From: Alphaproteobacteria bacterium
Lineage (GTDB): Bacteria; Pseudomonadota; Alphaproteobacteria; Sphingomonadales; Emcibacteraceae
DNA: 38,285 bases
Direction of reading: 5' to 3'
Assembly: GCA_013152755.1 (NCBI GenBank)
Contig: JAADFR010000002.1
Span: 1 to 38,285, forward strand
The notes under the pieces were generated by a model. The model did not search any database. It saw nothing but the letters and a program-made list of their open reading frames with translations, and had not been told where the DNA came from. Below, piece after piece: positions 4,341-27,768 of this stretch. A program made the translations under genes and the position numbers. The number at the start of each line of letters is the position of its first letter. The first letter of the stretch is position 1.

Positions 4341-5858
4341 TTACCTGATATGCTTTTTCTGGCGGTAACTCAGGGCTTCGGAGACATGTATTTTGCTGAT
4401 GTTCAGGCTACCGTCCAAATCGGCTATGGTACGTGCCACGCGCAATATCCTGTGATAGCCGCGCGCCGTCAGCCGCATGACATCAATGGCTTGGGTGAGG
4501 ATTTCCTGCCCCGCTTTGTCCAGACTTGCCACGGCCTCCAAGGCCTCGCCATCCACCTCCGCATTACAGCGAATGTGATTCAGCCCCATGGCTTGATAAC
4601 GTTCCGTTTGCAGGGTCCGGGCGGCCATGACACGGGCGGCCACATCCGGGCTACCCTCAGAAGGCGCCGGCAGGGTCAGATCATGAGCGCTAACCGCCGG
4701 CACCTCGATGTGAATGTCAAAGCGGTCCATCATGGGGCCTGAGATTTTTGACTGGTAATCCACCGCACATCTGGGCGCGCGGGAACAGGCCTGCGCCGGA
4801 TCATCCAGATAACCACAGCGGCAGGGGTTCATAGCCGCCACCAGTTGGAAACGGGCCGGATAAGTCACATGACGATTGGCCCGGGCCACCACCGCCTCAC
4901 CGCTTTCAATGGGTTGACGCAGGCTATCCAGCGCCGGACGTTGAAATTCGGGCAATTCATCAAGGAATAACACACCCCGATGGGCCAGTGAAATTTCGCC
5001 GGGCCGGGCCTTCAATCCGCCGCCCACCAGCGCCGCCATAGAGGCCGAATGATGGGGGTTGCGAAAGGGCCGATTGCGGGTAATGCCGCCCTCTGTCAAC
5101 AGGCCAGATATTGAGGCAATCATGCTCACCTCCAGCACCTCCTCCGCCGTCATGGGTGGCAGGATACCGGGCAGCCTTGCCGCCAGCATGGATTTCCCGG
5201 AGCCCGGTGGCCCCACCATACATAGATTATGCCCCCCGGCGGCAACAATTTCCAGCGCCCGTTTGGCGGTTTCCTGCCCCTTTATATCCCGAAGATCAGG
5301 GGTGTTTTTGGTGTCTTGGGCAATCGCCGCTGTCGGTGGGCTAAGTAGTTGATTGCCCTTTAAGTGATTGATCAGGCTGAGCAGATTTTCGGCGGCAATG
5401 ATCTCCACCTCCCCGGCCCATGCGGCCTCGCCGCCCGAGGCCGCCGCACAGACCAAGCCGCAATCAAGCTCCAGTGCCTTCATGGCCGCCAACAACACCC
5501 CCGGCACCGCCTGTATGGCCCCGTCCAGCCCCAGCTCCCCCAGAACAATATAGGATTCCACCGTATCACTGGCCACAGCCTCCATCGCCACCAACAGGCC
5601 AAGGGCAATGGCAAGGTCATAATGGCTGCCTTCCTTGGGCAGATCAGCAGGCGCCAGATTAACGGTAATTCTTTTCGGCGGTAGTGCCAATCCAATGGCC
5701 CCGAGTGCCGCCCGCACCCGCTCCCGGGATTCGGCCACCGCCTTGTCCGGCAGGCCAACGATGGTAAAAGACGGCAGGCCTGACGCAACCTGCACCTGCA
5801 CATCAACCAGTCTGGCCTCTATGCCGACAAAGGCAACTGTCCCGATATGTGCAACCAT
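4341..5858 (-). CDS. comM: ComM/YifB-family Mg-chelatase-like AAA+ ATPase
   Basis: ComM is a cytoplasmic hexameric AAA+ helicase that drives branch migration during natural transformation in gammaproteobacteria; the family is widespread and also termed YifB. The 505 residues match the usual full length. The N-terminal ChlI-like domain shows VQVASGLPSFTIVGLPDKAV, and then KRITVNLAPADLPKEG. The AAA+ core has Walker A GPPGSGKS near residue 216 and Walker B LFLDELPEF near residue 296. A Cys-rich zinc-finger-like stretch (NPCRCGYLDDPAQAC...PRCA) and a C-terminal helical domain (ARGYHRILRVARTIADLDG) follow. AAGGA stands 6 bases before the ATG. A decayed copy of its 3' end lies at 3421-3490. Confidence 0.93.
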   Translation of the reverse strand: MVAHIGTVAFVGIEARLVDVQVQVASGLPSFTIVGLPDKAVAESRERVRAALGAIGLALPPKRITVNLAPADLPKEGSHYDLAIALGLLVAMEAVASDTVESYIVLGELGLDGAIQAVPGVLLAAMKALELDCGLVCAAASGGEAAWAGEVEIIAAENLLSLINHLKGNQLLSPPTAAIAQDTKNTPDLRDIKGQETAKRALEIVAAGGHNLCMVGPPGSGKSMLAARLPGILPPMTAEEVLEVSMIASISGLLTEGGITRNRPFRNPHHSASMAALVGGGLKARPGEISLAHRGVLFLDELPEFQRPALDSLRQPIESGEAVVARANRHVTYPARFQLVAAMNPCRCGYLDDPAQACSRAPRCAVDYQSKISGPMMDRFDIHIEVPAVSAHDLTLPAPSEGSPDVAARVMAARTLQTERYQAMGLNHIRCNAEVDGEALEAVASLDKAGQEILTQAIDVMRLTARGYHRILRVARTIADLDGSLNISKIHVSEALSYRQKKHIR

Positions 5859-5959
5859 CCCCCATCCTTTTTTACTGGAAATACATGATATGCAGATAGC
5901 TTATCAGCAAATGCATCAAGAAAAAAGACAAGAATTTTGCGGGAAAAATAGCTTAAGAA

Positions 5960-6544
5960 TTAAATCCAGGAAAAGGCTTTCCGGACGTCCCGGTCATTTC
6001 CCTTGGTGTCAGCATCCAAATCCGTATCATGGGTTTCTTCCATGATAATCTCTTCATTACATTTGGAACTTCTTGCATAGTTCGACTTGGGCAGGATCAT
6101 TTTATAGGAAAACTGCAAGGCCCGTTCTTCCAAAGACTTGAGCCGCCGTTCGTTTCTCTGTAATTCACGCTCCAACTGCACGATGACATTTTTCTTTATT
6201 GCTGCCGGAATTGAGGGGTCCAGTTCCACCTCCCGAATGGTATCATTCAATTCCGTCACAATGTTCAGTTTTATGTCAACCAATGTCTGCCGGGCATCTT
6301 TCAGGGTTGCTTTAATATCCACAATGCCGGATTCGGTGATAACCCCAAATTGCCTGTTAAGTTCAATATCCAATTCCAAATCAGGGTGCAAGGCACTTTT
6401 TGAGGATCCATTCACATCAAGATTTCCATGGTGATCCACAAGAAATTTCTGCCCCAAAAAAGTGGCCCCTGAAAGCATTACCACAAGCCCCAAAGCGGTG
6501 CCGGACAGCTTCATGATCAATGCTTTATAGTTTTTTCTCTTCAC
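5960..6544 (-). CDS. Hypothetical membrane-anchored protein with charged helical region
   Basis: Not recognised. This 194-residue protein probably starts at GTG (6544), with GAGGG about 6 bases upstream. One hydrophobic helix (about residues 11-31, KLSGTALGLVVMLSGATFLG) is followed by a probably periplasmic part. A helical, heptad-like stretch (about 75-145) includes IKATLKDARQTLVDIKLNIV and QLERELQRNERRLKSLEERA and could form a coiled coil. The C-terminus is acidic and has a single Cys in SSKCNEE. It lies 101 bases upstream of comM on the same strand and 109 bases downstream of the AMIN-barrel gene. Context suggests an envelope protein, but no function can be assigned. Confidence 0.6.
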   Translation of the reverse strand: MKRKNYKALIMKLSGTALGLVVMLSGATFLGQKFLVDHHGNLDVNGSSKSALHPDLELDIELNRQFGVITESGIVDIKATLKDARQTLVDIKLNIVTELNDTIREVELDPSIPAAIKKNVIVQLERELQRNERRLKSLEERALQFSYKMILPKSNYARSSKCNEEIIMEETHDTDLDADTKGNDRDVRKAFSWI

Positions 6545-11900: not shown

Positions 11901-14900
11901 TTACCAGACAATTTTTTCTATCCCATCAAAATCAATGGTTGAGCCATCCTCAAAGGTAATGGTGCCCGCTGAATCATCCGACAGAAATATCTCATTAGCC
12001 CCTTCATCGGTAGACTGAATTGTTGATCCATCATCCAGTGTCAATGTCCAGCCCTGTTGAGAATCAGAATCTGAAAAACCGTCAAGCTGAATTGTATCCG
12101 TCCAGCCGCCGCCATCACCGCCCGAAACAATATCCGTTCCCTCATTGGTGCCGAATACAAAGGTATCATTTCCCGCACCGCCAAACATGGAATCATTACC
12201 GGTACCGCCTATCAGCGTATCATCACCGGTTGACGTCCAGATAGTATCATCTCCGGCCCCGCCTTTAACAATGATCCCCTCATCGTAGCTATAGGTATTG
12301 GACGTCATATCAACGATGTCGTCCCCATCACCCATATCAATTTCTTCGATATTCTGAATACGGGCCTGACTATCGGTCTCAAAGTTGCTTATACCATCAT
12401 CCAGGAACAACGCATCATCACCGCTTGTTCCCACAAGCGTATCATAGCCATCCCCGCCATTAAAGACATCGCTTGACTGGTTTGTACCACTTAGAGATAC
12501 ATTTTCGCCCGTTGTGACATTATGCGCCACATACCCTGGCCATGTGCCATCCGCATTATAGGCCAATGTGTCATCGCCGCTCCCCCCCTGCAAATCATTG
12601 GCACCATCTGTACCTTCAATAGTCTGACCATCGTTGTCATGACTATCATGACTGCCAGAATCATGATTATGTTCATCATTGTCATGGTTTTCATCATGAT
12701 CATTATCATCTTTGTCGTCATGATCGCCTTTGCCATCTTTGTCGTCTTTGTCGTCCTTATCGTCCTTATCGTCCTTGTCGTCTTTGTCGTCTTTGTCGTC
12801 CTTGTCGTCCTTGTCGTCCTTGTCGTCCTTGTCGTCTTTGTCGTCTTTGTCGTCCTTATGGTCTTTGTCGCCTTTATCGCTTTTATCGCCATCATGGTCG
12901 TTATCATTAACCGCTGAGACTGCCACGCTATAGGTTGCACTACTCGTCGCACTATTGCCTGCTTCGGAAGAAGTAGCCGTTACAGAAAGATCAAAACTAC
13001 CTGAAAAATTGGACGGTGGCGTAATGGTCAGCCCATCAAGTTCTTCTGGTGTCAAGCTCCAGCTCCCATCCCCATTATCTGTTCCTGCAGACAATACCGC
13101 CCCATCGGGCACACCGGAAATAGTAACAGCAAGACTTTCCGATGAATCACTCAAACTGGCACCAATATCAAGCGCAATGGCACTATCTTCAGCCCCTGAT
13201 GCAACAGCCGTCATATCAACATTACTTGTGTCAAATGACAAGGTACCCGACCAGGGCATCGTTTCATAACCATCGCTGTCGGGCTTGTCATAATAGGCAT
13301 CCTCTGCCTCAAACGTATAGCCACCAACAAAAACACCCGCGTCGTTCGCTTCCCCGCCGATGTTGATCTTGTCAACGATAAGGTTTCTATCTTCCCCGAT
13401 AATACCATCACCGTCATTATCATTCTTGCCATCCCAGGCATCATTGACAAATTTTACTTCAACGCTGTTTATCTGCGTACCCGGTTCCACTTCAAAGCGG
13501 AAAAGTTCCCAGTCACCCCGTTCCGCATCAACGGTAAAGGTACTTTGTCCGTCAATAACCACTGCTTCACCATTGACAAAAACCTGAAACTGCGGCGAAC
13601 CAGCACCCACATCTTCTACATTATTTGGATCATAATGATCGCCGGATATTTTCAGGGTGACCGGAATGCCACCCGTGTCATTTACCGTCAATGTTGGTGC
13701 ATCCGCAACTGCGCTTACATCGATACTTGCCGTACCTGTCGTTGTCGCCGTACCATCCGAGACACTGAAGCTCAGCGGCACATCATCGCCGTTATAATCA
13801 TCCGCCGGCGTAAAAGTATAAGTCCCGTCGCCATTATCAACAACCGTACCAAAATCTTCCCCAACCGTGACATCCGTCACACTCAGACTATCCCCGTCCA
13901 CATCCGAACTATTCGCTAATAGATCAGCCGTACTGAACGTCACCGACGTATCTTCTGCCGTTGTGCCAAGATCAACAGACCCGGCTATAGGACCATCATT
14001 CTGCGCACTTACCTCAAGGCTCACCGAACCTGTACTGGTGGCTGTACCATCACTTAACGTATAGCTGAAGCTGTCCGTCCCGTTATAATCCGCCGCCGGG
14101 CTATAGCTGAACGTCCCGTCCGCATTGATCTCAACCGTACCCCCGTTCGCCGTCGTGATCGTCTCGGCCACCACGCTCAAGCTGTCCCCGTCAACATCAC
14201 TGTCATTGGACAAGACATTGCCGCTGATCCCGCTGTCTTCTGTGCCGGAGAAACTGTCAGATGCGGCTACTGGTCCGTCATTACTACCGGTTACCGTAAC
14301 TGTCGCCATGGCCGTATCCGTACCGCCCTGACCATCAGAGATTTGATAGCTGATCTCAACCGTCGCCGTCTCGCCGTCATCAAGGCTGTTATAAGCCGTT
14401 CCCGGGTCATAACTTAAAGTACCATCACTGTTGACCGTAACACTGCCATCACCCGAAGAAACGCTCGCCGTGGTTACACTCAAGCTATCACCGTCAATAT
14501 CCGTGTCATTGCCCAGAACATTGATCGTCACAGAACTGTCTTCACTCACACTCAAACTAATATCCGATGCTGCCACCGGACCATCATTAACCGCGCTCAC
14601 ATCAAGGCTTGCGGTGCCTGTCGTTGTCGCCGTACCATCCGAGACGCTGAAGCTCAGCGGCACATCATTACCGTTATAATCATCCGCCGGGGTAAAGGTA
14701 TAGCTCCCATCACCGTTATCGGTCACCGTACCATATTCAGCATCAACCGTAACGCCCGTAACGCTAAGGTTATCCCCTTCCACATCTGAACTATTAGCCA
14801 GCAAATCCGCCGTACTAAAGGTCACGGACGTGTCCTCTGCCGTTGTGCCAAGGTCAACGTTGCCCGCAATGGGGCCATCATTCACCGCGCTCACATCGAG

Positions 14901-17900
14901 GGTCACCGAACCTGTACTGGTGGCTGTTCCGTCACTTAACGTATAGCTGAAGCTGTCCGTCCCGTTATAGTCTGCTGCAGGGGTATAGCTAAACGTCCCG
15001 TCCGCATGTATGTCAACCGTCCCCCCATTGGCGGTCGTGATAATTTCGGCCACCACCGACAAGGCCCCGCCATCCACATCTGTATCATTGCTGAGGACAT
15101 TGCCGCCGATCACCTGATCCTCGGCACCGGAAAAACTGTCAGCAACCGCAACCGGGCCATCATTACTGCCCGTTATGGTAACTGTCGCCGTTGCGGTATC
15201 TGTGCCGCCCTGACCATCAGATACCTGATAACTAATTTCCACCGTTGCGGTTTCGCCGTCCGGCAAGCCATCATAAGACGTGCCTGGATCATAGCTCAGG
15301 GTGCCGTCCGCATTGACCGTCACTGTGCCATCACCCGAAGAAACGCTTGCCGTCGTTACAGACAGGCTGTCCCCTTCCACATCCGAGGCATTACTCAAAA
15401 CATCTATTGTAACCGCATCATTCTCACCCGTATTAACGAGTGTATCACCCGCAACCGGACCATCATTTACCGCTGATACATCAAGGCTGGCGGTGCTATA
15501 AACAACGCTGTGACCGCCCTGCGCCCCAAAACTCAATGGGACATCGGTCCCGTTATAGTCGGGTGCCGGGGTAAAGCTGTACGTACCATCGCCATTATCC
15601 ACAACCGTACCGTAAGCCGGGTCAACGCTTACACTTGCCACCGTCAGCACATTGCCATTGTCATCGGTACTATTGGCCAGCAGATCACTGGCAGAGAAGG
15701 TAATGACCGTATCTTCAGCCGTTGACCCGAGGTCAACAGTCCCGATATGCATTCCCGCCTCGTCAGAACTAACCTCAAGGGTCACAGAGCCGGTATCCAC
15801 GGCGGTGCCATCACTTAACGTATAGGTAAAACTATCTTCACCATCAAAATTTGTTGCCGGGGTATAGCTAAAGGTACCGTCACTGTTAATGACCACCGTA
15901 CCGCCCTGCGCCGTGGTAATGGTTTCAGCAACAACTGAAAGCGCATCTCCCTCCACATCTGTATCATTGGCCAGCAGGTTTCCGCTAATAGTGTTATTTT
16001 CTGTACCCGAAAAAATATCACTTTCCGCAACGGGCCCGTCGTTAACCGCCGTCACATCAATAGTCGCCATTCCAGCAGACTGTGTCGTACCATCGGTTAC
16101 AACAAAATGCATAGGGACATTATCATCAGTATAATCCGCTGCCGGGGTAAAAGTATATGTCCCGTCCCCATTATCAACCAAGGCCCCATCGTGTGAATCG
16201 ACCGTAATCGAAACCACACTTAGGTTATCCCCATCAACATCAGATGAGTTCGCCAGTAAATCCGCCGCACTAAAGGTCACCGACGTATCCTCTGCCGTCG
16301 TCCCAAGGTCAACATCACCCACCACAGGACCGTCATTGCTGCCGGTCACCGTGACCGTCGCCGTGGCCGTATCCGTGCCGCCCTGACCGTCAGAGACTTC
16401 ATAGCTGATCTCAACCGTTGCTGTTTCACCGTCATCAAGGCTGTTATAAGCCGTTCCCGGATCATAACTTAACGTGCCATCCGCGTTTATGGTAACGCTT
16501 CCATCACCGCTGGAAACTGTCGCTGTCGTCACGCTCAGGCTGTCACCTTCAACATCAGAGGCCCCCGATAGGACATCAAGGGTAACTGTACTGTCTTCAT
16601 CCACATTACCACTAATGTCCGTGACGGCAGCCGGCCCATCGTTTACGGTTGTGACATCAACACTCGCCGTACCCGTTGTGGTCGCCGTACCATCCGAGAC
16701 GCTGAAACTCAATGGCACATTATCACCGTTATAATCCGCCGCCGGATTAAAGCTGTAGGTCCCATCCCCATTATCAGTTACCGTCCCATACTGGGCATCA
16801 ACCGAGACAGAGGTCACACTAAGGTTATCCCCGTCAACATCCGATGAATTCGCCAACAGGTCAGCGGCACTGAAAGTAACGGATGTATCCTCAGCTGTTG
16901 TACCAAGATCAACCGACCCCACTACAGGGCCATCATTCTGCGCACTTACCTCAAGGCTCACCGAACCTGTACTAGTGGTTGTGCCGTCACTCAAGGTATA
17001 GCTGAAGCTGTCCGTTCCGTTATAATCTGCCGCCGGGCTATAGCTGAACGTCCCGTCCGCATTAATCTCAACCGTGCCGCCGTTGGCCGTCGTAATCGTC
17101 TCGGCCACCACGCTCAGACTGTCGCCATCAACATCACTGTCATTGCTCAGGACATTGCCGCTAATCCCACTGTCTTCTGTGCCGGAGAAACTGTCAGAAG
17201 CGGCAATTGGCCCGTCATTACTGCCGGTCACCGTAACGGTCGCCGTCGCCGTGTCCGTCCCGCCCTGGCCGTCAGAGATTTCATAGCTGATTTCAACTGT
17301 CGCCGTCTCGCCAACCGCAAGGCTGTTGTAAGCTGTCCCCGGATCATAGCTCAGGGTCCCGTCCGCATTGACCGTCACACTGCCATCACCCGAAGAAACA
17401 CTCGCCGTCGTTACACTCAGGCTGTCGCCGTCAATATCCGTGTCATTACCTAGTACATTAATGGATATGGCATTGTCTTCATCCGCGCTGATAATGACAT
17501 CCGATACCGCAACCGGTCCATCATTAACCGCTGTCACATCCAGAACTGCTGTTCCCGTCGTGGCGGCAGAACCATCAGAGACCGTGAAATTCAATGGCAC
17601 ATCTACCCCATTATAATCTTCAGCCGGACTAAAGCTGTAGGTCCCATCACCATTGTCCGTTACTGTCCCATACTGGGCATCAACCGTGACAGAGGTCACG
17701 CTTAAACTATCCCCGTCCACATCCGATGAATTGGCCAATAAATCAGCAGCATTAAAAGTCACAGATGTATCTTCAGCCGTTGCACCAAGATCAACCGACC
17801 CCACAACCGGACCATCGTTAACTGCCGCAATGTCAATGATTGCGCTGGCCGGCGTTATGGTGGTGCCATCAGAGATATTATAACTGAGATGAACCTCTCC

Positions 17901-19550
17901 GTTATAATCAGCCTCCGGAACATAACTCCATGTGCCATTCCCGTTATTTGTAATCGTCCCATGGTCAACCGTAATATTCTGCATCAACAATGTATCCCCG
18001 TCTACATCGCTGGCGTTGCTTAACAACATTGCCTGTAACTGCTCTCCGGTCATGGTAATAGCTTGGTCTTCGGTACCCGCAAAAATAACAGGCTCCCCCA
18101 CCACAGGGGCGTCATTGCTGCCCGTTACCGTAACTGTCGCCGTTGCCGTATCGGTGCCGCCCTGACCGTCAGAGACTTCATAGCTGATCTCAACCGTCGC
18201 CGTCTCGCCAACCGCAAGGCCGTCGTAAGCCGTGCCCGGATCATAGCTCAGGGTGCCGTCCGTATTGACCGTCACACTGCCATCGCCCGAAGACACCGTG
18301 GCGGTGGTAACCGCCAGACTGTCGCCGTCAACATCTGTCGCACCGGACAGAACGTCAATGGTCACAGAGCCATTCTCGCCCACTTCGGCAACTGTATCAA
18401 CGGCAGAGGCCGCGACCGGGCCATCATTGACCGCTGTCACATCAATGGTTGCTGTACCATCCGTGCTGGCCGTGCCGTCAGAGACCGTGAAATTCAGCGG
18501 AACATCCGTGCCATTATAATCTGCAGCTGGTGTAAAACTATAAGTTCCATCACCATTATCAACCACCGTACCATAAGAGGCATCAACAGTTACAGCGGTC
18601 ACATTCAAGGCTTCCCCGTCCACATCCGTGGCCCCCGCCAGAAGGTCCGCCGCGCTAAAAGTTACGGACGTGTCCTCAAGCGTTGTGCCAAGGTCAACGG
18701 CATTCACAACCGGCGCATCATTACTGCCCACGATTTCAAGGGTTAGGGTTGCGGTGTCCGTTCCCCCCTCACCATCAGAGATGCTATAGGTGATGGTAAC
18801 CGTTTCTGTCTCGCCATCATCCAGATAATCATAGGCGCTACCGGGATTAAAGGTAATATTGGTTCCATCATGGGAGACGGCCCCAAGGCCGCCATCAACC
18901 ACAGCATCAACAATAAAAAGCTGTTCACTGTCTGTATTGGCATCTTTGTCATTATTCAGAACATTCAGGGTAAAGGCTTCGTCTTCAGTCAAAACCCCCA
19001 CATCATCACTGGCCACCGGCGCCGCATTGGGAGCCAGATTTTCTGTTGCAAAAGGTTGCCGACTGCCGGATTCAGTTGACTGTGCCGCAGCACCAGACTG
19101 AGCTTCGCCAACCTGTGGCGTTGTCGTATTTTGAGTGACCGGATCAAAGGAAAGTTCAGACGTAGCAACCCCGGCAGTTAACACAGAGTCGTCGGATGAT
19201 GTTTCCACCTCAGGGGCAGACTCTTCATCCATAAAGGCGGATAATTTGACTTCTGCCTGCTCTATATTTGTATGAACTGGGGAGCCTTCTACTTGGGTGT
19301 TATCTGTGGATGATGATGGAAAGGCCTGCCCCCCCTCATGCTCAAAACCGCTACCTTCTGTTTCCTGACTGCCAAGGTGGATATTCGCCCGGGTTTGCGT
19401 GTCCTGTGTCTCATCAATACTTGCTGAATCAAGGCGGGCGTCTTCTTCCCGTTGTCCTTTGACACGGTCCGCGCCCTGAACAATAGGGTCCAACTCAATA
19501 TCGCTATTGTTGGGGTTGACTTTGTCCTGATTGCTATCAGCCATATTCAT
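11901..19550 (-). CDS. Giant type I secreted RTX adhesin with cadherin/VCBS-like repeats
   Basis: This 2549-residue, strongly acidic protein has no N-terminal signal peptide. Residues 1-170 are low-complexity. About 174-1950 hold 18 tandem cadherin/VCBS-like domains of about 95-102 residues, most with a DVDGD-type motif and ending in AVND, GSND or a variant. About 1953-2080 resemble a calcium-dependent carbohydrate-binding module (FVNDAWDG, EDRNLIVDKINIGG). An Ig-like domain follows, then a DDK tract (about 2215-2275). RTX nonapeptides include GGSGDDTL, GGAGDDTIW and GGTGNDSMFGGAGNDTF, before a secretion-type C-terminus ending EKIVW. It is divergent from the ABC/ABC/HlyD operon, its likely exporter. 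Two in-frame ATGs exist, and the second (19544) has better spacing from GGAG. A cell-surface or matrix adhesin role is inferred. Confidence 0.9.
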   Translation of the reverse strand: MNMADSNQDKVNPNNSDIELDPIVQGADRVKGQREEDARLDSASIDETQDTQTRANIHLGSQETEGSGFEHEGGQAFPSSSTDNTQVEGSPVHTNIEQAEVKLSAFMDEESAPEVETSSDDSVLTAGVATSELSFDPVTQNTTTPQVGEAQSGAAAQSTESGSRQPFATENLAPNAAPVASDDVGVLTEDEAFTLNVLNNDKDANTDSEQLFIVDAVVDGGLGAVSHDGTNITFNPGSAYDYLDDGETETVTITYSISDGEGGTDTATLTLEIVGSNDAPVVNAVDLGTTLEDTSVTFSAADLLAGATDVDGEALNVTAVTVDASYGTVVDNGDGTYSFTPAADYNGTDVPLNFTVSDGTASTDGTATIDVTAVNDGPVAASAVDTVAEVGENGSVTIDVLSGATDVDGDSLAVTTATVSSGDGSVTVNTDGTLSYDPGTAYDGLAVGETATVEISYEVSDGQGGTDTATATVTVTGSNDAPVVGEPVIFAGTEDQAITMTGEQLQAMLLSNASDVDGDTLLMQNITVDHGTITNNGNGTWSYVPEADYNGEVHLSYNISDGTTITPASAIIDIAAVNDGPVVGSVDLGATAEDTSVTFNAADLLANSSDVDGDSLSVTSVTVDAQYGTVTDNGDGTYSFSPAEDYNGVDVPLNFTVSDGSAATTGTAVLDVTAVNDGPVAVSDVIISADEDNAISINVLGNDTDIDGDSLSVTTASVSSGDGSVTVNADGTLSYDPGTAYNSLAVGETATVEISYEISDGQGGTDTATATVTVTGSNDGPIAASDSFSGTEDSGISGNVLSNDSDVDGDSLSVVAETITTANGGTVEINADGTFSYSPAADYNGTDSFSYTLSDGTTTSTGSVSLEVSAQNDGPVVGSVDLGTTAEDTSVTFSAADLLANSSDVDGDNLSVTSVSVDAQYGTVTDNGDGTYSFNPAADYNGDNVPLSFSVSDGTATTTGTASVDVTTVNDGPAAVTDISGNVDEDSTVTLDVLSGASDVEGDSLSVTTATVSSGDGSVTINADGTLSYDPGTAYNSLDDGETATVEISYEVSDGQGGTDTATATVTVTGSNDGPVVGDVDLGTTAEDTSVTFSAADLLANSSDVDGDNLSVVSITVDSHDGALVDNGDGTYTFTPAADYTDDNVPMHFVVTDGTTQSAGMATIDVTAVNDGPVAESDIFSGTENNTISGNLLANDTDVEGDALSVVAETITTAQGGTVVINSDGTFSYTPATNFDGEDSFTYTLSDGTAVDTGSVTLEVSSDEAGMHIGTVDLGSTAEDTVITFSASDLLANSTDDNGNVLTVASVSVDPAYGTVVDNGDGTYSFTPAPDYNGTDVPLSFGAQGGHSVVYSTASLDVSAVNDGPVAGDTLVNTGENDAVTIDVLSNASDVEGDSLSVTTASVSSGDGTVTVNADGTLSYDPGTSYDGLPDGETATVEISYQVSDGQGGTDTATATVTITGSNDGPVAVADSFSGAEDQVIGGNVLSNDTDVDGGALSVVAEIITTANGGTVDIHADGTFSYTPAADYNGTDSFSYTLSDGTATSTGSVTLDVSAVNDGPIAGNVDLGTTAEDTSVTFSTADLLANSSDVEGDNLSVTGVTVDAEYGTVTDNGDGSYTFTPADDYNGNDVPLSFSVSDGTATTTGTASLDVSAVNDGPVAASDISLSVSEDSSVTINVLGNDTDIDGDSLSVTTASVSSGDGSVTVNSDGTLSYDPGTAYNSLDDGETATVEISYQISDGQGGTDTAMATVTVTGSNDGPVAASDSFSGTEDSGISGNVLSNDSDVDGDSLSVVAETITTANGGTVEINADGTFSYSPAADYNGTDSFSYTLSDGTATSTGSVSLEVSAQNDGPIAGSVDLGTTAEDTSVTFSTADLLANSSDVDGDSLSVTDVTVGEDFGTVVDNGDGTYTFTPADDYNGDDVPLSFSVSDGTATTTGTASIDVSAVADAPTLTVNDTGGIPVTLKISGDHYDPNNVEDVGAGSPQFQVFVNGEAVVIDGQSTFTVDAERGDWELFRFEVEPGTQINSVEVKFVNDAWDGKNDNDGDGIIGEDRNLIVDKINIGGEANDAGVFVGGYTFEAEDAYYDKPDSDGYETMPWSGTLSFDTSNVDMTAVASGAEDSAIALDIGASLSDSSESLAVTISGVPDGAVLSAGTDNGDGSWSLTPEELDGLTITPPSNFSGSFDLSVTATSSEAGNSATSSATYSVAVSAVNDNDHDGDKSDKGDKDHKDDKDDKDDKDDKDDKDDKDDKDDKDDKDDKDDKDDKDDKDGKGDHDDKDDNDHDENHDNDEHNHDSGSHDSHDNDGQTIEGTDGANDLQGGSGDDTLAYNADGTWPGYVAHNVTTGENVSLSGTNQSSDVFNGGDGYDTLVGTSGDDALFLDDGISNFETDSQARIQNIEEIDMGDGDDIVDMTSNTYSYDEGIIVKGGAGDDTIWTSTGDDTLIGGTGNDSMFGGAGNDTFVFGTNEGTDIVSGGDGGGWTDTIQLDGFSDSDSQQGWTLTLDDGSTIQSTDEGANEIFLSDDSAGTITFEDGSTIDFDGIEKIVW
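12738..12860 (-). repeat. 9-nt tandem repeat encoding Asp-Asp-Lys
   Basis: About 13 head-to-tail copies of a 9-base unit (plus strand gtcgtcYTT, with minor tt/ct and a/g variants) encode a DDK tract within the giant secreted protein, between its Ig-like domain and the RTX repeats. Because the unit is a multiple of three, copy-number change keeps the frame. The flanks (12660-12737 and 12861-12905) are further Asp/Lys/His-rich and more degenerate. Confidence 0.9.
13695..19035 (-). repeat. 18 tandem cadherin/VCBS-like repeats in three classes
   Basis: The repeat array of the giant adhesin has units of about 95-102 codons in three classes. A: VDLGTTAEDTSVTF...VPLSFSVSDG. B: NVLGNDTDIDGDSLSVTTA...ISDGQGGTDTATATV. 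C: SDSFSGTEDSGISGNVLSND...FSYTLSDG. From the N-terminus the order is B A B A' A B C A B A C A B C A B C A. The later part thus follows an ABC super-repeat of about 294 codons. Class C units at about 16934-17215 and 13997-14278 are almost identical. Confidence 0.85.
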
Positions 19551-19860: not shown

Positions 19861-21594
19861 ATGACTTCATCCACTATAGAATACCCGCAAAATATGGGGC
19901 AGGACAAACGGCAGAAATCCAACGCAGGCTTCGCTCCGATCATGCGGCCCGATATTCTGGTTGCCTCCTTATTCCTGAATGTGCTGTCATTGGCTTTGCC
20001 CATGGTGCTGTTACAGGTATATGACCGGATTATACCGAATGTCGCCCTGCAAACCCTGACCCTGCTCATCATGGGGTTGCTTGTGGTATTAGTGATAGAT
20101 GTCTTGCTGCGGACGGCGCGGGCCTATCTATCCGGCTGGGTCGGGGCAAAATACGAACATGAAACCGGATGTCAGGCCGTCGAAAAAATCTTGCGGGCCG
20201 ATTTGCAAAATCTGGAAAAAGTATCTCCCGGGGTTCATCTGGACCGCCTGTCATCCATTGATTCCATCCGGGATTTTTACGCCAGTCAGGCAGGATTGGC
20301 GCTGGTTGACCTGCCCTTTGTCTTTCTGTTCCTTGGACTTTTGGGTTATATCGGCGGGGCGTTGCTAATTGTTCCGGTGATTTTATTGCTCATATTGGGG
20401 GCCATTGCCTTTATTCTTGGGGTGCGGCTGAAAGAAGCCCTGAAGAATGACACACTGTGGGAAGACCGCAGATATAGTTTTATCATCGAAGTTCTAACCG
20501 GCATACATTCCATTAAATCCATGGCCATGGAAAACCTCATGGGGCGCCGTTATGAAAAACTGATGGAAAACTGCTCCAAGGCCTCATATGAAGTGATCTT
20601 CCTCAATGGCCTCTCACAAGGCATAGGCAGTGTATTCTCACAAATCACCATGGTTTCGGTGGCCTGCATCGGCAGTGTGCTTGTCATTAACGGCGACATT
20701 TCCATGGGTGCGCTGGCGGCCAGTACGTTGCTGGCGGGACGGACGGTACAGCCCTTGTTACGCGCGCTTGGCATATGGACCCGTTTTCAGCATATTCAGA
20801 TCGCCAGCGAAAAATTACGCCAGATCAATGACATGCCCGCTGAACGACCCGCTCAGACCACGGACCTGAAAAAAGTTCAAACCATTGAAATGAAAAATGT
20901 CAGCTTCCGTTATGATGCGGATGGCAAGGAAATCCTCAGCAACATCAGTCTGAAACTGAAACATGGGGACATCATTGGCATCCGGGGCGGAAATGGCTCT
21001 GGAAAATCAACCCTGCTATGGGCCTTGATGGGAGGCTTGACGCCGACCTCTGGCCAAATACTGGTCAATGGCAAGGATCCGACAATTTTTTCCGCCGACA
21101 GCCTGCGTCAGCGCATCGCCTATCTGCCCCAGAAACCCAGCATGTTCCGGGGCACCATATTGGACAATCTGACCATGTTCCGGGGGGATGAGTATATTGA
21201 TGACGCGCTGGAGATCGCGGAAATGCTGGATCTGAACAAAATTCTGGCCCGGATGCCGGACGGGTATGAAACCGTCATCGGTGACGGCGCGCAGAGTGAA
21301 ATTCCAACCGGTATCGCCCAGCGTATCACCATTGCCCGGTCACTGGCCTGCAAACCAGATGTGATTTTATTTGACGAGGCCAATTCCGGTCTGGACAATA
21401 AATCCGACAATGACCTACAGGAGCTAATCACCCGGCTAAAAGGCACTGCAACTATAGTATTGGTCAGCTATCGCCCGTCCCTCTTGCGGTTGGCAGACAA
21501 GCAATATGACCTGAAAGATGGCTGCCTGATAGAACAGGAAAACAGCCAGAAGGCCCCGGCCGCCTCACCTGTAAATGCGGGGGGACAGAAATGA
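19861..21594 (+). CDS. Type I secretion ABC half-transporter, no N-terminal accessory domain
   Basis: This 577-residue inner-membrane ABC exporter subunit has a six-helix transmembrane domain (about residues 30-310; LVASLFLNVLSLALPMVLLQ, then VYDRIIPN, typical of type I secretion permeases) and a C-terminal ATPase. Walker A is GGNGSGKST near 377. Walker B with catalytic Glu is ILFDEAN (E506). The signature motif is IPTGI (about 481-485) instead of LSGGQ, and the H-loop has Tyr537 (VSYRPS) where His is expected. Its stop overlaps the next ABC gene by 4 bases (ATGA), arguing for a heterodimer made from one transcript. It is divergent from the giant RTX adhesin, its likely cargo. Confidence 0.88.
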   Translation: MTSSTIEYPQNMGQDKRQKSNAGFAPIMRPDILVASLFLNVLSLALPMVLLQVYDRIIPNVALQTLTLLIMGLLVVLVIDVLLRTARAYLSGWVGAKYEHETGCQAVEKILRADLQNLEKVSPGVHLDRLSSIDSIRDFYASQAGLALVDLPFVFLFLGLLGYIGGALLIVPVILLLILGAIAFILGVRLKEALKNDTLWEDRRYSFIIEVLTGIHSIKSMAMENLMGRRYEKLMENCSKASYEVIFLNGLSQGIGSVFSQITMVSVACIGSVLVINGDISMGALAASTLLAGRTVQPLLRALGIWTRFQHIQIASEKLRQINDMPAERPAQTTDLKKVQTIEMKNVSFRYDADGKEILSNISLKLKHGDIIGIRGGNGSGKSTLLWALMGGLTPTSGQILVNGKDPTIFSADSLRQRIAYLPQKPSMFRGTILDNLTMFRGDEYIDDALEIAEMLDLNKILARMPDGYETVIGDGAQSEIPTGIAQRITIARSLACKPDVILFDEANSGLDNKSDNDLQELITRLKGTATIVLVSYRPSLLRLADKQYDLKDGCLIEQENSQKAPAASPVNAGGQK

Positions 21595-23798
21595 GCAACT
21601 CCAACGGGCCCGCGCGGCAATTAATAGATAATCTGGAAGACCGTGTTCAAGAGGGTGTCGTCCTGTCAACGTCCAGCAGCGCCCAAATGGCCGAGGCCAT
21701 GAAAACCGGTGAAATCGGGTCATTCAATGCCAAATCTCCCTATGCCTCCTGCCTGATTCCTTTGCTGAATGCTTTGGGATGGCGCGGAGATGTGCGGGGG
21801 TTGTTTGAATCTCTGCCCCATTTTGCTGATAGTCTGGACCTGACAGAATTCCGAAATACACTGGCGCGGCTTCACTATAAAACAGTGCGAACGCCGGCCT
21901 GCATTTCACACATTGATGACCGGCTTTTCCCCTGCCTTTTTGCCGGGGCGGATGATGTGCCCATCATTATCCTGTCAAAGGAAAAAGAGGGCATCCGCAT
22001 ATTCGACAGTGTTGACCGGGCAGAAAAATTCCTGAAAGATACCGAGATCCACGGCACGGCCTATTTCATCTCCTCGGAATATAGCACACAAACCAACAAG
22101 AAAAAACAAGCCAAACCAAAGGAAAACTGGGTTGGCGATTTGTTCAGGCGTTTTAAAAGCACCATAAAACAGCTTTTTGCCATGACCTTCATCCTGAATA
22201 TCTTTGCCCTGCTGGTGCCGCTGTTCATCATGGCCATTTATGATCAGGTCATCCCGTCAAAATCCGGGGAGACACTGGCCTATCTGGCGGGCGGCATCAT
22301 ATTTGCCATTTTATGTGAAATTCTGTTGCGGATAATCCGCTCGGGCTTTGTCGCCTATCTCGGGGCGCGGGTTGAGAATATTGTCACCTCCGCCACCTTT
22401 CAAAAGCTGTTATCCCTGCCGCCGCCCATGACGGAATCCTCCCCCATCGGGGCGCAGGTGTCCCGGCTTAGAGAGTTTGACACCATCAAAGGATTATTTT
22501 CCGGCACGCTGGTCAATATTGTTCTGGAACTGCCCTTTGTGGTTATTTTTCTCGTGGTTATTGCCATCCTCGGCGGCTCGCTGGCCTATATTCCCATCGC
22601 CATGATGGGTGTTTTCGCATTGATTGCTTTTATCATGCTGCCGTCCATGAAACGCAATGTGGCCCTGTCCGGTCGTCAAAAATCAGAAAGACACGGCTTT
22701 CTCGTGGAAAGCATGTCCAATCTGCGTACCATCAAACAGACGGCTTCCGAACAATCCTGGCTTGACCGTTTTCGCCATTTATCAGCAGATGCGGCCTATT
22801 CCCACTTTCGGACCTCACAGGTCTCCCTGCTCATGCAAAGTCTGGCACAGGCCATCATGATGGGGGCGGGCGTGGCCACGGTAGGCTTCGGGGTTATCAA
22901 AATCCTGAACGGTGATATGACAGTCGGTGCCCTGATTGCCAGTATGGCGCTGGTCTGGCGGGTATTGTCACCCTTGCAAAGCCTGTTCCTGACCCTGACC
23001 CGCCTTGAGCAGACCCTGAATAGTGTCAAGCAGATTAACCTGCTTATGAAAATAGCGTCCGAGGATGACCCCAGCCCGTCAAGCCTGTCCCAGCGAGAGT
23101 TTTCGGGTCATATTGTCATGGACCGGGTCAGTTTCCGCTATCGTCCAAACGCAGAACCGGCCCTGCTCGGCGTCTCATTCGAGGTCAAACCCGGTGAAAT
23201 GTTATCGATCATTGGCTCCAATGCCGCCGGGAAGTCCACCGCCCTCAAACTTTTGCTGGCCATGAACAGACCGCAGGCCGGACAGGTTATTCTGGATGGT
23301 CTGGATATTCGCCAAATCAACCCCATCGCATTGCGCCGGGCCATCGCTTACGTGCCGCAAGAATCACATTTCTTTCACGGCACCATTGCCCAAAATTTAA
23401 ATCTGGCCCAGCCCATGGCGACCCGTGATGATCTGATAGAAGCCTGCGTTAAAGCCAATGTTCTGGATGACATTAAGGCCCTTGAATATGGTTTTGACAC
23501 CCGCATCGGGGATCAGTCCATTCAAAGTCTGCCGTCAAGTTTCAAACAACGGCTGTCATTGGCCCGGGCTTATCTGAAGAAAGCGCCGATCCTGTTGCTT
23601 GATGAACCGGCAAAAACATTGGATTATGAAGGCGATGTCGCCTTTATGGACTCCCTGAGAGCCATAAAAGGCACGACCACGATCCTGATGGTTTCACATC
23701 GGCCAAGCCATATTAAAATGGCCGATAAAGTATTGGTTCTGAAAGATGGCATGATCGCCAATTTCGGAACGCCCGCAGACATTTTTCCAGAGCTTTAG
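21591..23798 (+). CDS. Type I secretion ABC half-transporter with degenerate C39-like N-domain
   Basis: This 735-residue ABC exporter subunit has an N-terminal domain (about 1-165) in the position of a C39 peptidase or C39-like domain. A Cys occurs in SCLIPLLNALGW, but the expected catalytic His position reads VPIIIL, so proteolysis is unlikely and a substrate-binding role is inferred. Six TM helices (about 190-480; FALLVPLFIMAIYDQVIPS) precede the ATPase. Walker A is GSNAAGKST (about 542-550), the signature is LPSSF (647-651) in place of LSGGQ, catalytic E672 follows LLLD, and H-loop His703 is present. It overlaps the upstream ABC gene by 4 bases and is followed 9 bases later by the HlyD gene. 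Confidence 0.88.
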   Translation: MSNSNGPARQLIDNLEDRVQEGVVLSTSSSAQMAEAMKTGEIGSFNAKSPYASCLIPLLNALGWRGDVRGLFESLPHFADSLDLTEFRNTLARLHYKTVRTPACISHIDDRLFPCLFAGADDVPIIILSKEKEGIRIFDSVDRAEKFLKDTEIHGTAYFISSEYSTQTNKKKQAKPKENWVGDLFRRFKSTIKQLFAMTFILNIFALLVPLFIMAIYDQVIPSKSGETLAYLAGGIIFAILCEILLRIIRSGFVAYLGARVENIVTSATFQKLLSLPPPMTESSPIGAQVSRLREFDTIKGLFSGTLVNIVLELPFVVIFLVVIAILGGSLAYIPIAMMGVFALIAFIMLPSMKRNVALSGRQKSERHGFLVESMSNLRTIKQTASEQSWLDRFRHLSADAAYSHFRTSQVSLLMQSLAQAIMMGAGVATVGFGVIKILNGDMTVGALIASMALVWRVLSPLQSLFLTLTRLEQTLNSVKQINLLMKIASEDDPSPSSLSQREFSGHIVMDRVSFRYRPNAEPALLGVSFEVKPGEMLSIIGSNAAGKSTALKLLLAMNRPQAGQVILDGLDIRQINPIALRRAIAYVPQESHFFHGTIAQNLNLAQPMATRDDLIEACVKANVLDDIKALEYGFDTRIGDQSIQSLPSSFKQRLSLARAYLKKAPILLLDEPAKTLDYEGDVAFMDSLRAIKGTTTILMVSHRPSHIKMADKVLVLKDGMIANFGTPADIFPEL

Positions 23799-23807
23799 AG
23801 AATAAAT

Positions 23808-25274
23808 ATGACCAAGAACACAGAAAATAACGATAAAAAAACCACGGAAAATGACGCCCGGATAACATTGGATGATGTTAGAGCCTTTCGTAAGGCTGGC
23901 GCTAACAAGCTTGAGAATCTTGTGGAGAAGGCAACAGAAGCCGCCCGTCAGAAACGGACGAAGCCGGTAAGCTATTACACACGTTTTCTGTCACGCGCCA
24001 TTCTGTTGGAAGAATCCGGACCACCCCGGGCGATTGTCTCGACGGTGGGGATTATAGCCCTGTTTCTGGTTGGTGTTATTACCTGGGCATCGGTGACCAC
24101 CCTGAATGAAACCAGCGTTGCCACCGGACAGGTCCGACCCGCCGCCACGGTTCAGCCCGTGCAGCATCTGGAAGGTGGAATTGTCTCCGCTGTTCTGGTT
24201 AGCGAAGGCGAAGACGTAAAAAAAGGTCAGACTATATTAACACTGGCCCCAACGGCGGCCCTGTCAAATCTGGACAGGATCAAGGCCCGTTATATTTCGC
24301 TCAGTCTGCAAATCAAACGGCTGAAGGCCTTTGCCGCTGGCAAAGATGGTGATTTTTCCAGCTTTGAGAAAGAGCACCCCCTGTTGGTACAGGATCAAAG
24401 GGACGTATTGGCACAACAGAATAAATCACGCATAGCTCAACAAGACGTCATAAAATCACAGCTTGATGAAAGAAACAACGAACTGTTGCTATTACAGCGT
24501 CAGGAAATGACCGAGAAGAAAAATCTGGCCATTATTGCCGAAGAAATGAAAATGCGTCAGGAACTGACCGACAAAGGTCTTGGCTCAAAATTAAAGCTTC
24601 TGGAGGTCCAGCGCGCCCATAACAAGGCTGAAGGCGACCTGATCCAGACCCAATCCAGAAAAGCCGGCGTCCGGGCCACCATTGCTAAGGTCAAAGGTGA
24701 CCTGGTGGCTCTGAATGAAAGATTTCGCAATGAGACACTGATTCAGGTGGATGCTTTAAGCGGTGAGCGCGCAGAGGTTTCTGCGGAACTGACACAGCTC
24801 AATGACCGGGTAAAGCGGCTTGCGGTTCTCTCTCCCGCTGACGGGATTGTCAAGGGGCTGAAATATCACACCGTTGGCAGTGTCATCCCGCCCGGCGATA
24901 TATTAGCCGAAATTGTCCCTATTTCCGGCGGGCTGGTGGCAGAAGTGAAAATTTCGCCCCGTGACATCGGCCATGTCAATGTGGGCAGTGAAGTTTTGCT
25001 AAAAATTGATACCTATAATTATGCCCGTTACGGCAGTATCACCAGCAGCCTGCGTCAGGTATCCGCCTCCTCCTTCCTTGATGAAGAAGGCAATACCTAT
25101 TTCAAGGGATTCGTAGATCTGCCCAATAATTACATCGGTACGGATCCAAAATCCAACCGGATAACCTCCGGCATGACGGTGGTTGCCGATATTCAGACAG
25201 GTAAGAAAACCCTGCTTCAATATCTGGTAAAACCCATCAACAACGCCCTGAACACCTCATTCCGGGAACGGTAG
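23808..25274 (+). CDS. HlyD-family type I secretion periplasmic adaptor
   Basis: This 488-residue membrane-fusion protein bridges the ABC exporter and an outer-membrane channel. A charged cytoplasmic N-terminus of about 70 residues leads to one TM helix (about 67-87, IVSTVGIIALFLVGVITWAS). The lipoyl-type half-motif VQHLEGGIVSAVLVSEGEDV and a long coiled-coil hairpin (about 155-330) follow. The second half-motif is RLAVLSPADGIVKGLKYHTVG, and then comes a beta-barrel domain with GMTVVADIQTGKKTLLQYL, characteristic of the HlyD/PrtE type. It completes the three-gene operon with the two ABC subunits. No TolC-like gene follows, so the outer-membrane partner must be encoded elsewhere. Confidence 0.9.
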   Translation: MTKNTENNDKKTTENDARITLDDVRAFRKAGANKLENLVEKATEAARQKRTKPVSYYTRFLSRAILLEESGPPRAIVSTVGIIALFLVGVITWASVTTLNETSVATGQVRPAATVQPVQHLEGGIVSAVLVSEGEDVKKGQTILTLAPTAALSNLDRIKARYISLSLQIKRLKAFAAGKDGDFSSFEKEHPLLVQDQRDVLAQQNKSRIAQQDVIKSQLDERNNELLLLQRQEMTEKKNLAIIAEEMKMRQELTDKGLGSKLKLLEVQRAHNKAEGDLIQTQSRKAGVRATIAKVKGDLVALNERFRNETLIQVDALSGERAEVSAELTQLNDRVKRLAVLSPADGIVKGLKYHTVGSVIPPGDILAEIVPISGGLVAEVKISPRDIGHVNVGSEVLLKIDTYNYARYGSITSSLRQVSASSFLDEEGNTYFKGFVDLPNNYIGTDPKSNRITSGMTVVADIQTGKKTLLQYLVKPINNALNTSFRER

Positions 25275-25293
25275 GGCTAAAGACAGACCCTAC
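25271..25293. terminator. Small hairpin spanning both stop codons of convergent genes
   Basis: GTAGGG (25271-25276) and CCCTAC (25288-25293) form a 6-bp stem with an 11-base loop. The left arm contains the hlyD-type gene's TAG stop and the right arm touches the stop of the ferritin gene. No T-tract follows on either strand, so terminator function is only suggested by position. Confidence 0.35.
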
Positions 25294-25580
25294 TATTCAT
25301 GGGCAATGGTTTTTTCGGTAAAGAGGTAATCTTTCAGCTCTTTATCGAAGGAGCTGTCCCGACGTCTGATCCATTCAAGAACCATGGCAGCATGTTCTTT
25401 TTCTTCATCACGATTATGGGCAAGGATTGCTTTTAACTCAGGGTCACGGCAAGCATCCACACGTTGATTATACCAATCAACGGCCTCCAGCTCCTCCATC
25501 AGGGACACGATGGCCCTGTGCATATCTCTTGTGTCGTCTGTGAGTTCTTCTACAGGTTCGTGATAACCTTCGTTCGCCAT
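25293..25580 (-). CDS. Encapsulated-ferritin-type (EncFtn) ferritin-like protein
   Basis: This 95-residue two-helix ferritin-like protein closely resembles the EncFtn of Rhodospirillum rubrum (my recall of that sequence). Shared segments are HRAIVS.MEELEAVDWY.QRVDA, AILAHNRDEEKEHAAM and a C-terminal LFTE. The ferroxidase and entry residues described for EncFtn are all present: Glu29, Glu30, Glu32, Trp36, His55, Glu59, Glu60, Glu62 and His63. EncFtn oxidises Fe(II) inside an encapsulin nanocompartment. Here the chain stops at TEKTIAHE, with no glycine/leucine-rich cargo-targeting tail, and no encapsulin shell gene is nearby. An AAGGA site precedes the ATG, and TATAAT (25606-25611, minus) is a possible -10. 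Confidence 0.9.
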   Translation of the reverse strand: MANEGYHEPVEELTDDTRDMHRAIVSLMEELEAVDWYNQRVDACRDPELKAILAHNRDEEKEHAAMVLEWIRRRDSSFDKELKDYLFTEKTIAHE

Positions 25581-25632
25581 AATATAATCCTTTCATTATT
25601 GTTTGATTATATATGGGACATTAGAGAAGATA

Positions 25633-26724
25633 TTACAATACGCCTCGTATATCTTTGGTAAGCCCGCCCCAGGAGAATTTAAGTATATAGCCAGTGACCC
25701 ATATACTGAACGCGGCCAGCAATACCCCGCCAACACCGTCTATGACATAATGCCAGCCCAGTACAACGGTGGAAATCCACACCATCACCACCCATGGAAT
25801 AGTCACCACCAGGGTCCATTTCCGTGTGGTATAGAGCCAATAGGAGGTAAGCGTGATCATACCGATATGCAGGCTTGGCATGGCGGATATGCCCCCCAGA
25901 AGAATACCGCCTTCCTGAATGGCCTGATCAAGGGGCAGGGCAAGGGTATGGTTCAATTTGTCAACGGCCATTTTGGTCAGGGAATCCGCCGCATGATTGA
26001 AATATTCTGGCTTGTAAAAGGCCGGGCCTTTCACCGGGTTCAACATGCCGATAAACCGCCCCAGATAATAGAGAATGATCATGGAATAACCATAGAAAAA
26101 CACGACCCGCGTACTCTGACTAACCACAATCAGAAAGCACACCATCGCCATCTCAATAGCCCAACAGCTATGATACAGGGGATCCCAGAAATTCGTATTG
26201 ATATGGAGTGTGGACAGCCATTCAAACAGGGGCCCCTCAATGGCCCAGAATATCCCGTCCCGCCATTCCGTGGTCCCGGACAGAAGCTTGAAACTCAACA
26301 GGGTGATATTTGACGTTCCCAATATAGCAAGGCAAGTCAGAACAATAATCAAAAGCGCGGACAGGCCCACTGGATAAAATTTCATGGCGAATAAATTGGA
26401 CCGCAAGGGTTCAGGAAATAACGGCGCCCCGGAGATTTTTGTCTTCACATCGTCCAGTATGCTCAAAAGGATAAGCGCAATATGCCAAAGGCTACCCACG
26501 AATAAAACATATAATGCCACAACCGCCAGCAACAGATTGGTATCATTAAACCACAGGGAAAAGGGCGAGGATATTATGGACGCCGCCATCGCCGTCACAC
26601 CGAGCATAACCGCATGTAAAATAAGAATTAAGACAGCATAACGCCATACCGGCCGTTGCAGGATAAAATCACGAATATTGACTCTATTCGCCTGCACCCC
26701 GATCGCCTGATTACTGTCCTGCAT
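25633..26724 (-). CDS. PAP2-superfamily (Aur1/inositolphosphotransferase-like) membrane enzyme
   Basis: This 363-residue inner-membrane protein has about eight hydrophobic helices. The C-terminal half carries PAP2-type motifs: NPVKGPAFY, SAMPSLHIG (about residue 285-295, with the catalytic-type His) and GWHYVIDGVGG, the HYxxD motif of the Aur1-like PAP2_3 group. These enzymes move head groups between phospholipids, sphingolipids or related lipids, or dephosphorylate lipid phosphates. The gene lies 86 bases downstream of gshB and 52 bases upstream of the EncFtn gene, all on the minus strand. Substrate cannot be told from sequence. Confidence 0.8.
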   Translation of the reverse strand: MQDSNQAIGVQANRVNIRDFILQRPVWRYAVLILILHAVMLGVTAMAASIISSPFSLWFNDTNLLLAVVALYVLFVGSLWHIALILLSILDDVKTKISGAPLFPEPLRSNLFAMKFYPVGLSALLIIVLTCLAILGTSNITLLSFKLLSGTTEWRDGIFWAIEGPLFEWLSTLHINTNFWDPLYHSCWAIEMAMVCFLIVVSQSTRVVFFYGYSMIILYYLGRFIGMLNPVKGPAFYKPEYFNHAADSLTKMAVDKLNHTLALPLDQAIQEGGILLGGISAMPSLHIGMITLTSYWLYTTRKWTLVVTIPWVVMVWISTVVLGWHYVIDGVGGVLLAAFSIWVTGYILKFSWGGLTKDIRGVL

Positions 26725-26810: not shown

Positions 26811-27752
26811 TTAAAGTCGCTTTTCAATGGCATCCCACAGCAGGGCGGAAATATCCGTGCCGTCAAACCGTTGAATTTCCTGAATACCGGTCGGTGAGGT
26901 AACGTTGATTTCCGTCAGATAATCCCCGATCACATCAATGCCGACAAATAACAGACCCTGTTCCCGCAATGTCGGGCCGATCTCATCACATATCTGCCGC
27001 TCCCGGTCGGTCAGCTCGGTCTTTTTGGCCTCGCCCCCCACATGCATGTTGGAGCGAACTTCGCCCGCCTGCGGCACCCGGTTGATGGCCCCGACAGCCT
27101 CCCCGTCCACAAGGATAATCCGCTTATCACCCTTGGTCACATCAGACAGATATTGCTGAACAATGAAGGGTTCGGGGTAAAATTGCTGGAATATCTCAAT
27201 CAGGCTGCTCAGATTCTGATCGTCCGGGCGTATTCTGAACACCCCAGCCCCGCCGTTGCCGTAAAGCGGCTTGACAATTATATCCTTATGCTCCTCGCGA
27301 AAGGCGATCACATCGCGCCGATTGCTGGTAATCAAAGTTGGCGGCATGAGGTCCGGAAAACGGGTCAGGAAAATCTTTTCCGGCGCATTACGTACCGCCG
27401 CCGGATCATTAACCACCAGGGTTTTTGGATGCACATGCTCCAGAATATGGGTGGCGGTGATATAGCCCATGTGAAAGGGCGGATCCTGCCGCATGAGGAT
27501 CACATCCACATCCTCGGCCAAATCAATTTTATCCTCGGCCCCATATGAGAAATGATTGCCCAATTCCCGCCGCAGGGTCAGGGCGCGCGCGTGGGCTGTC
27601 ACCCGGCCATCCTGCAACGACAGGTCATCCACATCATAATGATATAATTTATAGCCACGATTTTCTGCCTCAAGCCCAAGGGCAAAGGTGCTGTCACCGT
27701 TAATATCAACAGATTCAATGGGGTCCATTTGCAGGGCAACTTTAAGGCTCAT
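26811..27752 (-). CDS. gshB: Glutathione synthetase
   Basis: GshB joins gamma-glutamylcysteine and glycine with ATP to give glutathione in the cytosol. The start chosen is the ATG at 27752 ([15 protein letters not shown]), the usual N-terminus of alphaproteobacterial GshB; a GTG at 27767 would add five residues. The protein has the prokaryotic GSH-synthetase domain followed by ATP-grasp: [63 protein letters not shown] and [20 protein letters not shown]. The length of 313 residues is normal. It is the last of the tightly packed rsmI-yraN-sirB1-gshB series; the GTG variant would leave a 1-base gap to sirB1. Confidence 0.95.
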
Positions 27753-27768
27753 AGCCGTATTTTCCACT

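Follow-up and report, generated by a model that had tools for sequence, protein, structure and literature searches.

A short EncFtn-like protein without targeting tail or encapsulin in an alphaproteobacterium, and its shell-less relatives in Pseudomonadota

The prevailing view is that encapsulated ferritins depend on a shell, since a ring on its own has no way of storing the product of its oxidation. The shell gene of such encapsulin cargo (FLP-TP) is normally adjacent to the cargo gene. Classical ferritins, bacterioferritins (Bfr) and Dps proteins carry a PF00210 domain and assemble into closed cages of 12 or 24 subunits.

The EncFtn of R. rubrum (Rru_A0973, PDB 5DA5; 140 aa, PMC11202242 Table 1) belongs to the family of TIGR04535, the encapsulin-associated ferritin-like proteins, and its ferroxidase, entry and exit residues have been assigned (PMC5012862). 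Its free construct EncFtn-sH is an active ferroxidase with 10–15 Fe per decamer, from which Fe(III) precipitates, and the free protein showed neither peroxidase activity nor mineral storage in vitro (PMC5012862). A class of short proteins has been named 'Non-EncFtn' (PMC5012862) and 's-FLP' (PMC11202242). According to the 2024 review PMC11202242, the type of the s-FLP class, NE0167 of N. europaea (PDB 3K6C), is a decamer, and the same review leaves open whether s-FLPs are encapsulated, or hold an undefined binding sequence in their short C-terminus. Here, we analysed a gene for such a protein in 38,285 nucleotides of alphaproteobacterial DNA. This whole stretch is referred to as the window, and the features around the gene are collected in Table 1.

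The short protein and its metal sites

The open reading frame starts with an ATG and encodes 95 aa. The protein matches PF22277 (EncFtn-like; 3.1e-45, 152 bits against a curated Pfam cut-off of 27) and TIGR04535 (137 bits against an NCBIfam cut-off of 125), a family match far beyond chance that bears out the first-pass annotation of the gene as EncFtn. Pfam gave no match to PF00210 in the protein itself. The closest solved structure is 3K6C (81% identity over 95 aa), which was also the top Foldseek match to the predicted model, followed by the R. rubrum EncFtn. The model is a single-sequence AlphaFold prediction of the monomer only (pLDDT 79, with poorly supported termini). A third short helix is predicted at H78-93 and the protein ends after it, rather than just after the second helix as had been annotated.

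Table 1 Features around the EncFtn gene in the window
Feature	Position	Strand	Evidence
HlyD-family adaptor for type I secretion (convergent neighbour), in one T1SS with 19861-23798	23808..25274	+	TIGR01843 3.3e-107
Short EncFtn-like ferroxidase (s-FLP class), 95 aa, without encapsulin targeting peptide	25293..25580	-	PF22277, TIGR04535, 3K6C identity, Foldseek
TEKTIAHE and stop; conserved I/L-A-H end where a targeting peptide would be	25293..25319	-	Homologue alignment, downstream frames
Gap to PAP2 gene, 52 bp, with GAAAGGA ribosome-binding-like site	25581..25632	-	Sequence
PAP2-superfamily membrane protein, upstream neighbour, same strand	25633..26724	-	PF14378 6.6e-18; order kept in G629
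Glutathione synthetase (GshB), two genes upstream, same strand	26811..27767	-	PF02955 5.3e-74 and PF02951

Comparison with NE0167 revealed no difference of kind. Both proteins are 95 aa long, align end to end, finish in IAHE, share the metal residues of the ferroxidase centre (FOC) and lack a targeting peptide, and NE0167 has Leu where the window protein has W36. 3K6C was crystallised with 10 chains, and the window protein comes from an alphaproteobacterium in whose own assembly no PF00210 ferritin was detected. The R. rubrum EncFtn resembles the window protein in fold, ferroxidase centre, and entry and exit residues, with about 70% core identity. However, its disordered C-terminus carries a targeting peptide and it is encapsulated, whereas tail and shell are both missing for the window protein. 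Ferroxidase-type diiron chemistry is common to the window protein and the Dps, ferritin and bacterioferritin proteins (PF00210), and by analogy a role in peroxide and iron protection may be shared as well. Unlike the PF00210 proteins, the two-helix subunit would build an open ring and no closed mineral-storing cage.

To compare residues, we aligned 99 short-A and 26 short-B sequences together with 8 tailed EncFtn sequences. The R. rubrum ferroxidase centre (E32, Y39, E62, H65) corresponds to E30, Y37, E60 and H63 of the window protein, the entry site (E31, E34) to E29 and E32, and the exit site (H57, E61, E64) to H55, E59 and E62. All of these are invariant in the 99 short-A close homologues, as is W36, which is also counted among the aligned metal residues, in agreement with the first-pass annotation that every metal-site residue is kept. 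Cys44 (window numbering), situated between the two long helices, occurs in 99/99 short-A, 25/26 short-B and three of the eight tailed sequences, whereas the R. rubrum EncFtn has Ser; a redox or partner role for this residue is possible.

Targeting tails and encapsulin shells

Targeting-peptide patterns, such as (L/F)-x-(I/V)-GS-L, were found neither in the window protein nor in the three frames downstream of its stop, and the absence of a cargo tail after TEKTIAHE, as first noted, stands. A frameshift concealing a tail is excluded, because the homologues stop at the same place (85/99 close homologues are exactly 95 aa long) and no frame holds a tail motif. The end itself is conserved in the short-A homologues (I or L at position 92 in 99/99, A93 in 87/99, H94 in 93/99), and in nearly all relatives in the class the terminus, which carries this I/L-A-H end, shifts by no more than a few residues.

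The organism's assembly, 2.9 Mb in 191 contigs and 95.5% complete, was searched by profile. It holds one PF22277 gene and no family-1 encapsulin (PF04454), the latter with a control that was positive in three known genomes. The profile search thus gave neither a further EncFtn nor any encapsulin in the rest of the assembly, which carries the annotated absence of a shell gene from flanks of at least 12 kb to the whole assembly. The family-2 shell profile PF19307 had no match in the assembly, yet the control genomes were silent too. No PF00210 ferritin, bacterioferritin or Dps was found in the assembly, and 14/14 control genomes were positive.

In GTDB species genomes, relatives of the window protein are encoded at no fewer than 585 loci. 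The best 80 of these at least 585 show 83–91% identity and belong mostly to Alpha-, Beta-, Gamma- and Zetaproteobacteria, and no encapsulin was found near them in 1.28 Mb, where three weak matches were spurious frames. The initial label of orphan, if it is taken to mean exceptional, is wrong: the protein is an ordinary member of a large, strongly conserved and already described class (s-FLP, 3K6C; 'Non-EncFtn'), known but functionally uncharacterised.

Tail and shell were compared in 59 Pseudomonadota genomes with EncFtn, 38 from a sample of the class and 21 from a sample of the phylum. Strong EncFtn matches were present in 38/250 genomes of the class. Seven of these proteins are tailed (126–138 aa, with ends of the SLGIGSLR-, SLRIGSLK- or LTIGRMKK-type), and each of the seven genomes has an encapsulin about 110–170 bp away; the remaining 31 are untailed (95–105 aa), with PF04454 in 0/31 genomes. 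The phylum sample contained one tailed EncFtn (FTIGSLKK) with an adjacent encapsulin, 16 genomes with untailed EncFtn and no encapsulin, and four divergent Bradyrhizobium-type short EncFtn proteins, for which two of the four genomes have an encapsulin elsewhere. In total, an encapsulin is adjacent in 8/8 tailed cases and absent from the entire genome in 49/51 untailed cases (Fisher p 2e-8, over 59 genomes that are not independent and without correction for relatedness), the two Bradyrhizobium-type proteins being the only exceptions. In the sampled Pseudomonadota, tail and shell are thus present or absent as a pair, and short forms live without a shell almost everywhere. On a tree of the 59 EncFtn sequences the tail state changes three times, and the starred branches force at least three changes, which is a count and not an order of gains and losses.

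Two tailed, encapsulin-linked EncFtn proteins (L106 and L107, from genomes G033 and G162) are nested in the short-B alphaproteobacterial clade. Their tail end differs (LTIGRMKKRR) and their encapsulins score lower; tail and shell may have been regained here. The divergent Bradyrhizobium-type short EncFtn proteins (L169 4001-4315; G292, G310, G358 and G454) are 40–45% identical; in the four genomes, position 55 is Asn and position 62 is Lys. Such a gene on plasmid CP069301.1 adjoins an MgtC/SapB gene and is close to cadA.

Gene neighbourhoods and peroxide defence

The annotated neighbours of the EncFtn gene were confirmed as a PAP2 protein (PF14378) and a HlyD-type secretion adaptor (TIGR01843), the convergent hlyD gene ending 18 bp from the EncFtn stop. 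A promoter and terminator scan gave no terminator in the EncFtn-PAP2 gap, and a Fur-box scan of the 200 bp upstream of EncFtn did not rise above shuffled sequence; co-transcription with the PAP2 gene is therefore possible. A genome of the same genus (G629) has an EncFtn 98.9% identical to that of the window and the same gene order. The type I secretion genes at 19861-25274 (+) comprise two ABC transporters and the HlyD adaptor, and lie divergent from a gene at 11901-19550 (-) for a VCBS/cadherin-like repeat protein of 2549 aa that contains a long Asp/Lys (DKDDKDD) stretch. The window also encodes two secreted proteins, at 2075-3232 and 3603-4151 (-), with the PEP-CTERM-like ends VPEPASMALLGFGLLGLGLARRRRK and VPEPAPLALLGFGLLGLGLARGRRR.

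The PAP2, GshB and T1SS neighbourhood of the window is without peroxidases. In two other genomes of the genus (G626 and G624), the order is ahpC-ahpF-EncFtn-katG, divergent from a LysR-type regulator that is oxyR-like by position and family, and katG precedes EncFtn in a genome of the same family (G637). Four beta- and gammaproteobacterial loci (L016, L021, L023 and L054) have the order rubrerythrin-FeS-EncFtn-DUF3501, and one alphaproteobacterial genome (G339, L147) has FeS-EncFtn-DUF3501. L015 and L188, which agree in length and are apparently one contig, were counted once. The excerpted text of PMC5114695 describes a rubrerythrin, Fe-S oxidoreductase (RFO) and DUF3501 cluster of aerobic type and shows no short EncFtn in it. 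In the four beta/gamma loci the short EncFtn lies between the oxidoreductase and DUF3501 genes of this operon, whereas the window locus has no such operon. AhpC, KatG, rubrerythrin, the Fe-S protein and DUF3501 each gave 3–5 matches within 4 kb of EncFtn and none beyond.

About 130 loci were examined; at most of them EncFtn has no peroxide gene as a neighbour, and the neighbours vary widely. A conserved partner gene was rejected for the majority, since the commonest families in an immediate-neighbour Pfam tally reached at most 6/150; the largest neighbour clusters were also rejected as partners, being antisense reading frames of EncFtn itself. The commonest immediate-neighbour family was the MscS-type mechanosensitive channel, which accounts for 6 of 150 neighbouring proteins across L001-L080. 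A minority of loci suggests a role for short EncFtn in peroxide defence.

PF00210 ferritins are also present in most short-EncFtn genomes, and short EncFtn as a strict ferritin replacement was rejected on this ground. Complementarity between EncFtn and PF00210 within the genus was not significant (0/6 against 3/10, Fisher 0.25), several of the genomes being incomplete. EncFtn is intact in 6/16 genomes of the genus, that of the window included. The gene appears to have been lost in places, because G631 of this genus carries a 5'-truncated fragment (L190, about 5100-5226) that encodes the last 35 residues and ends TIAHE, with its stop at ~5226. In G658, of the same order (L191, about 5830-5975), the MANEG start of an EncFtn copy is joined straight to the AILAHNRDEE region and the frame is broken, which looks like loss of the middle part but could be an assembly error.

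A proposed ferroxidase ring without a cage

We propose that short-class EncFtn works without an encapsulin, as a free ferroxidase ring that most likely serves in peroxide defence, and consider this the probable explanation. The free-ferroxidase part is supported because no shell was found in the genome and short forms are shell-less almost everywhere. As in NE0167/3K6C and the R. rubrum construct EncFtn-sH, the two-helix subunits would assemble into an iron-stabilised ring in which every subunit pair holds a diiron ferroxidase centre. Oxidation of Fe(II) in the cytosol would leave less of it for Fenton chemistry. The short class is in effect the natural counterpart of EncFtn-sH. For this organism we infer the decamer, the ferroxidase activity, the peroxide link and the fate of Fe(III). 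Such a ring cannot store Fe(III) as mineral by itself. Against the proposal stand the window's neighbours, none of them a peroxidase, the majority of loci without an adjacent peroxide gene, the missing Fur-like box, and the lack of peroxidase activity and mineral storage in free EncFtn in vitro. Short EncFtn is not a simple ferritin substitute, because many shell-less genomes carry classical ferritins. The first-pass annotation had proposed either a free ferroxidase or loading by another route; the former is the better half, and the latter finds no shell candidate in this organism, family 1 being the one tested with a working control.

A further-reaching version is speculative and on balance doubtful. 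Short EncFtn could act as a stand-alone, peroxide-responsive ferroxidase ring that stands in for Dps or ferritin where lineages lack classical ferritins; the conserved Cys44 and the I/L-A-H end would then be parts of an undescribed, cage-free means of keeping or handing over Fe(III).

It is unlikely that iron buffering or hand-over, rather than peroxide defence, is the main role, with a low-capacity ring (about 10–15 Fe) passing Fe(II) or Fe(III) to another store or to Fe-S or haem assembly. The low capacity and lack of mineral in the free R. rubrum protein agree with this, as do the many carriers that own PF00210 ferritins as possible iron receivers, and the invariant Cys44, mostly absent in tailed forms, could serve a partner or redox contact. 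However, the organism's own genome has no classical ferritin as receiver, and the immediate-neighbour tally held no recurrent iron-transport or Fe-S assembly neighbour.

We regard it as very improbable that the final residues hold an undefined binding sequence by which the short protein still enters a shell, the shell gene having been missed in the assembly or belonging to another family. The conserved I/L-A-H residues, the 95.5% completeness of the genome and the silent family-2 control speak for it, but the 49/51 untailed genomes without PF04454 include single-contig ones rated 100% complete (for example G028 and G121), the two exceptions are divergent proteins whose encapsulins lie elsewhere in the genome, and the 80 close homologues have none nearby. 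A relic, a former cargo that lost its shell and is now decaying, is scarcely credible: the gene is patchy in the genus, intact in 6/16 genomes and 5'-truncated in G631, but identity among the best GTDB homologues is 83–91% across classes, the metal residues are invariant, and the genus mate G629 keeps a 98.9% identical copy in the same gene order.

For the sampled Pseudomonadota, the tail and shell result answers the question of encapsulation left by the 2024 review, and, with the neighbourhoods, adds evidence for a short class that does without a shell and may have a part in peroxide defence. It raises the question of what a cage-less ferritin does with its iron, for which the genus with oxyR-ahpCF-EncFtn-katG clusters and N. 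europaea NE0167, with its solved structure, are tractable systems.
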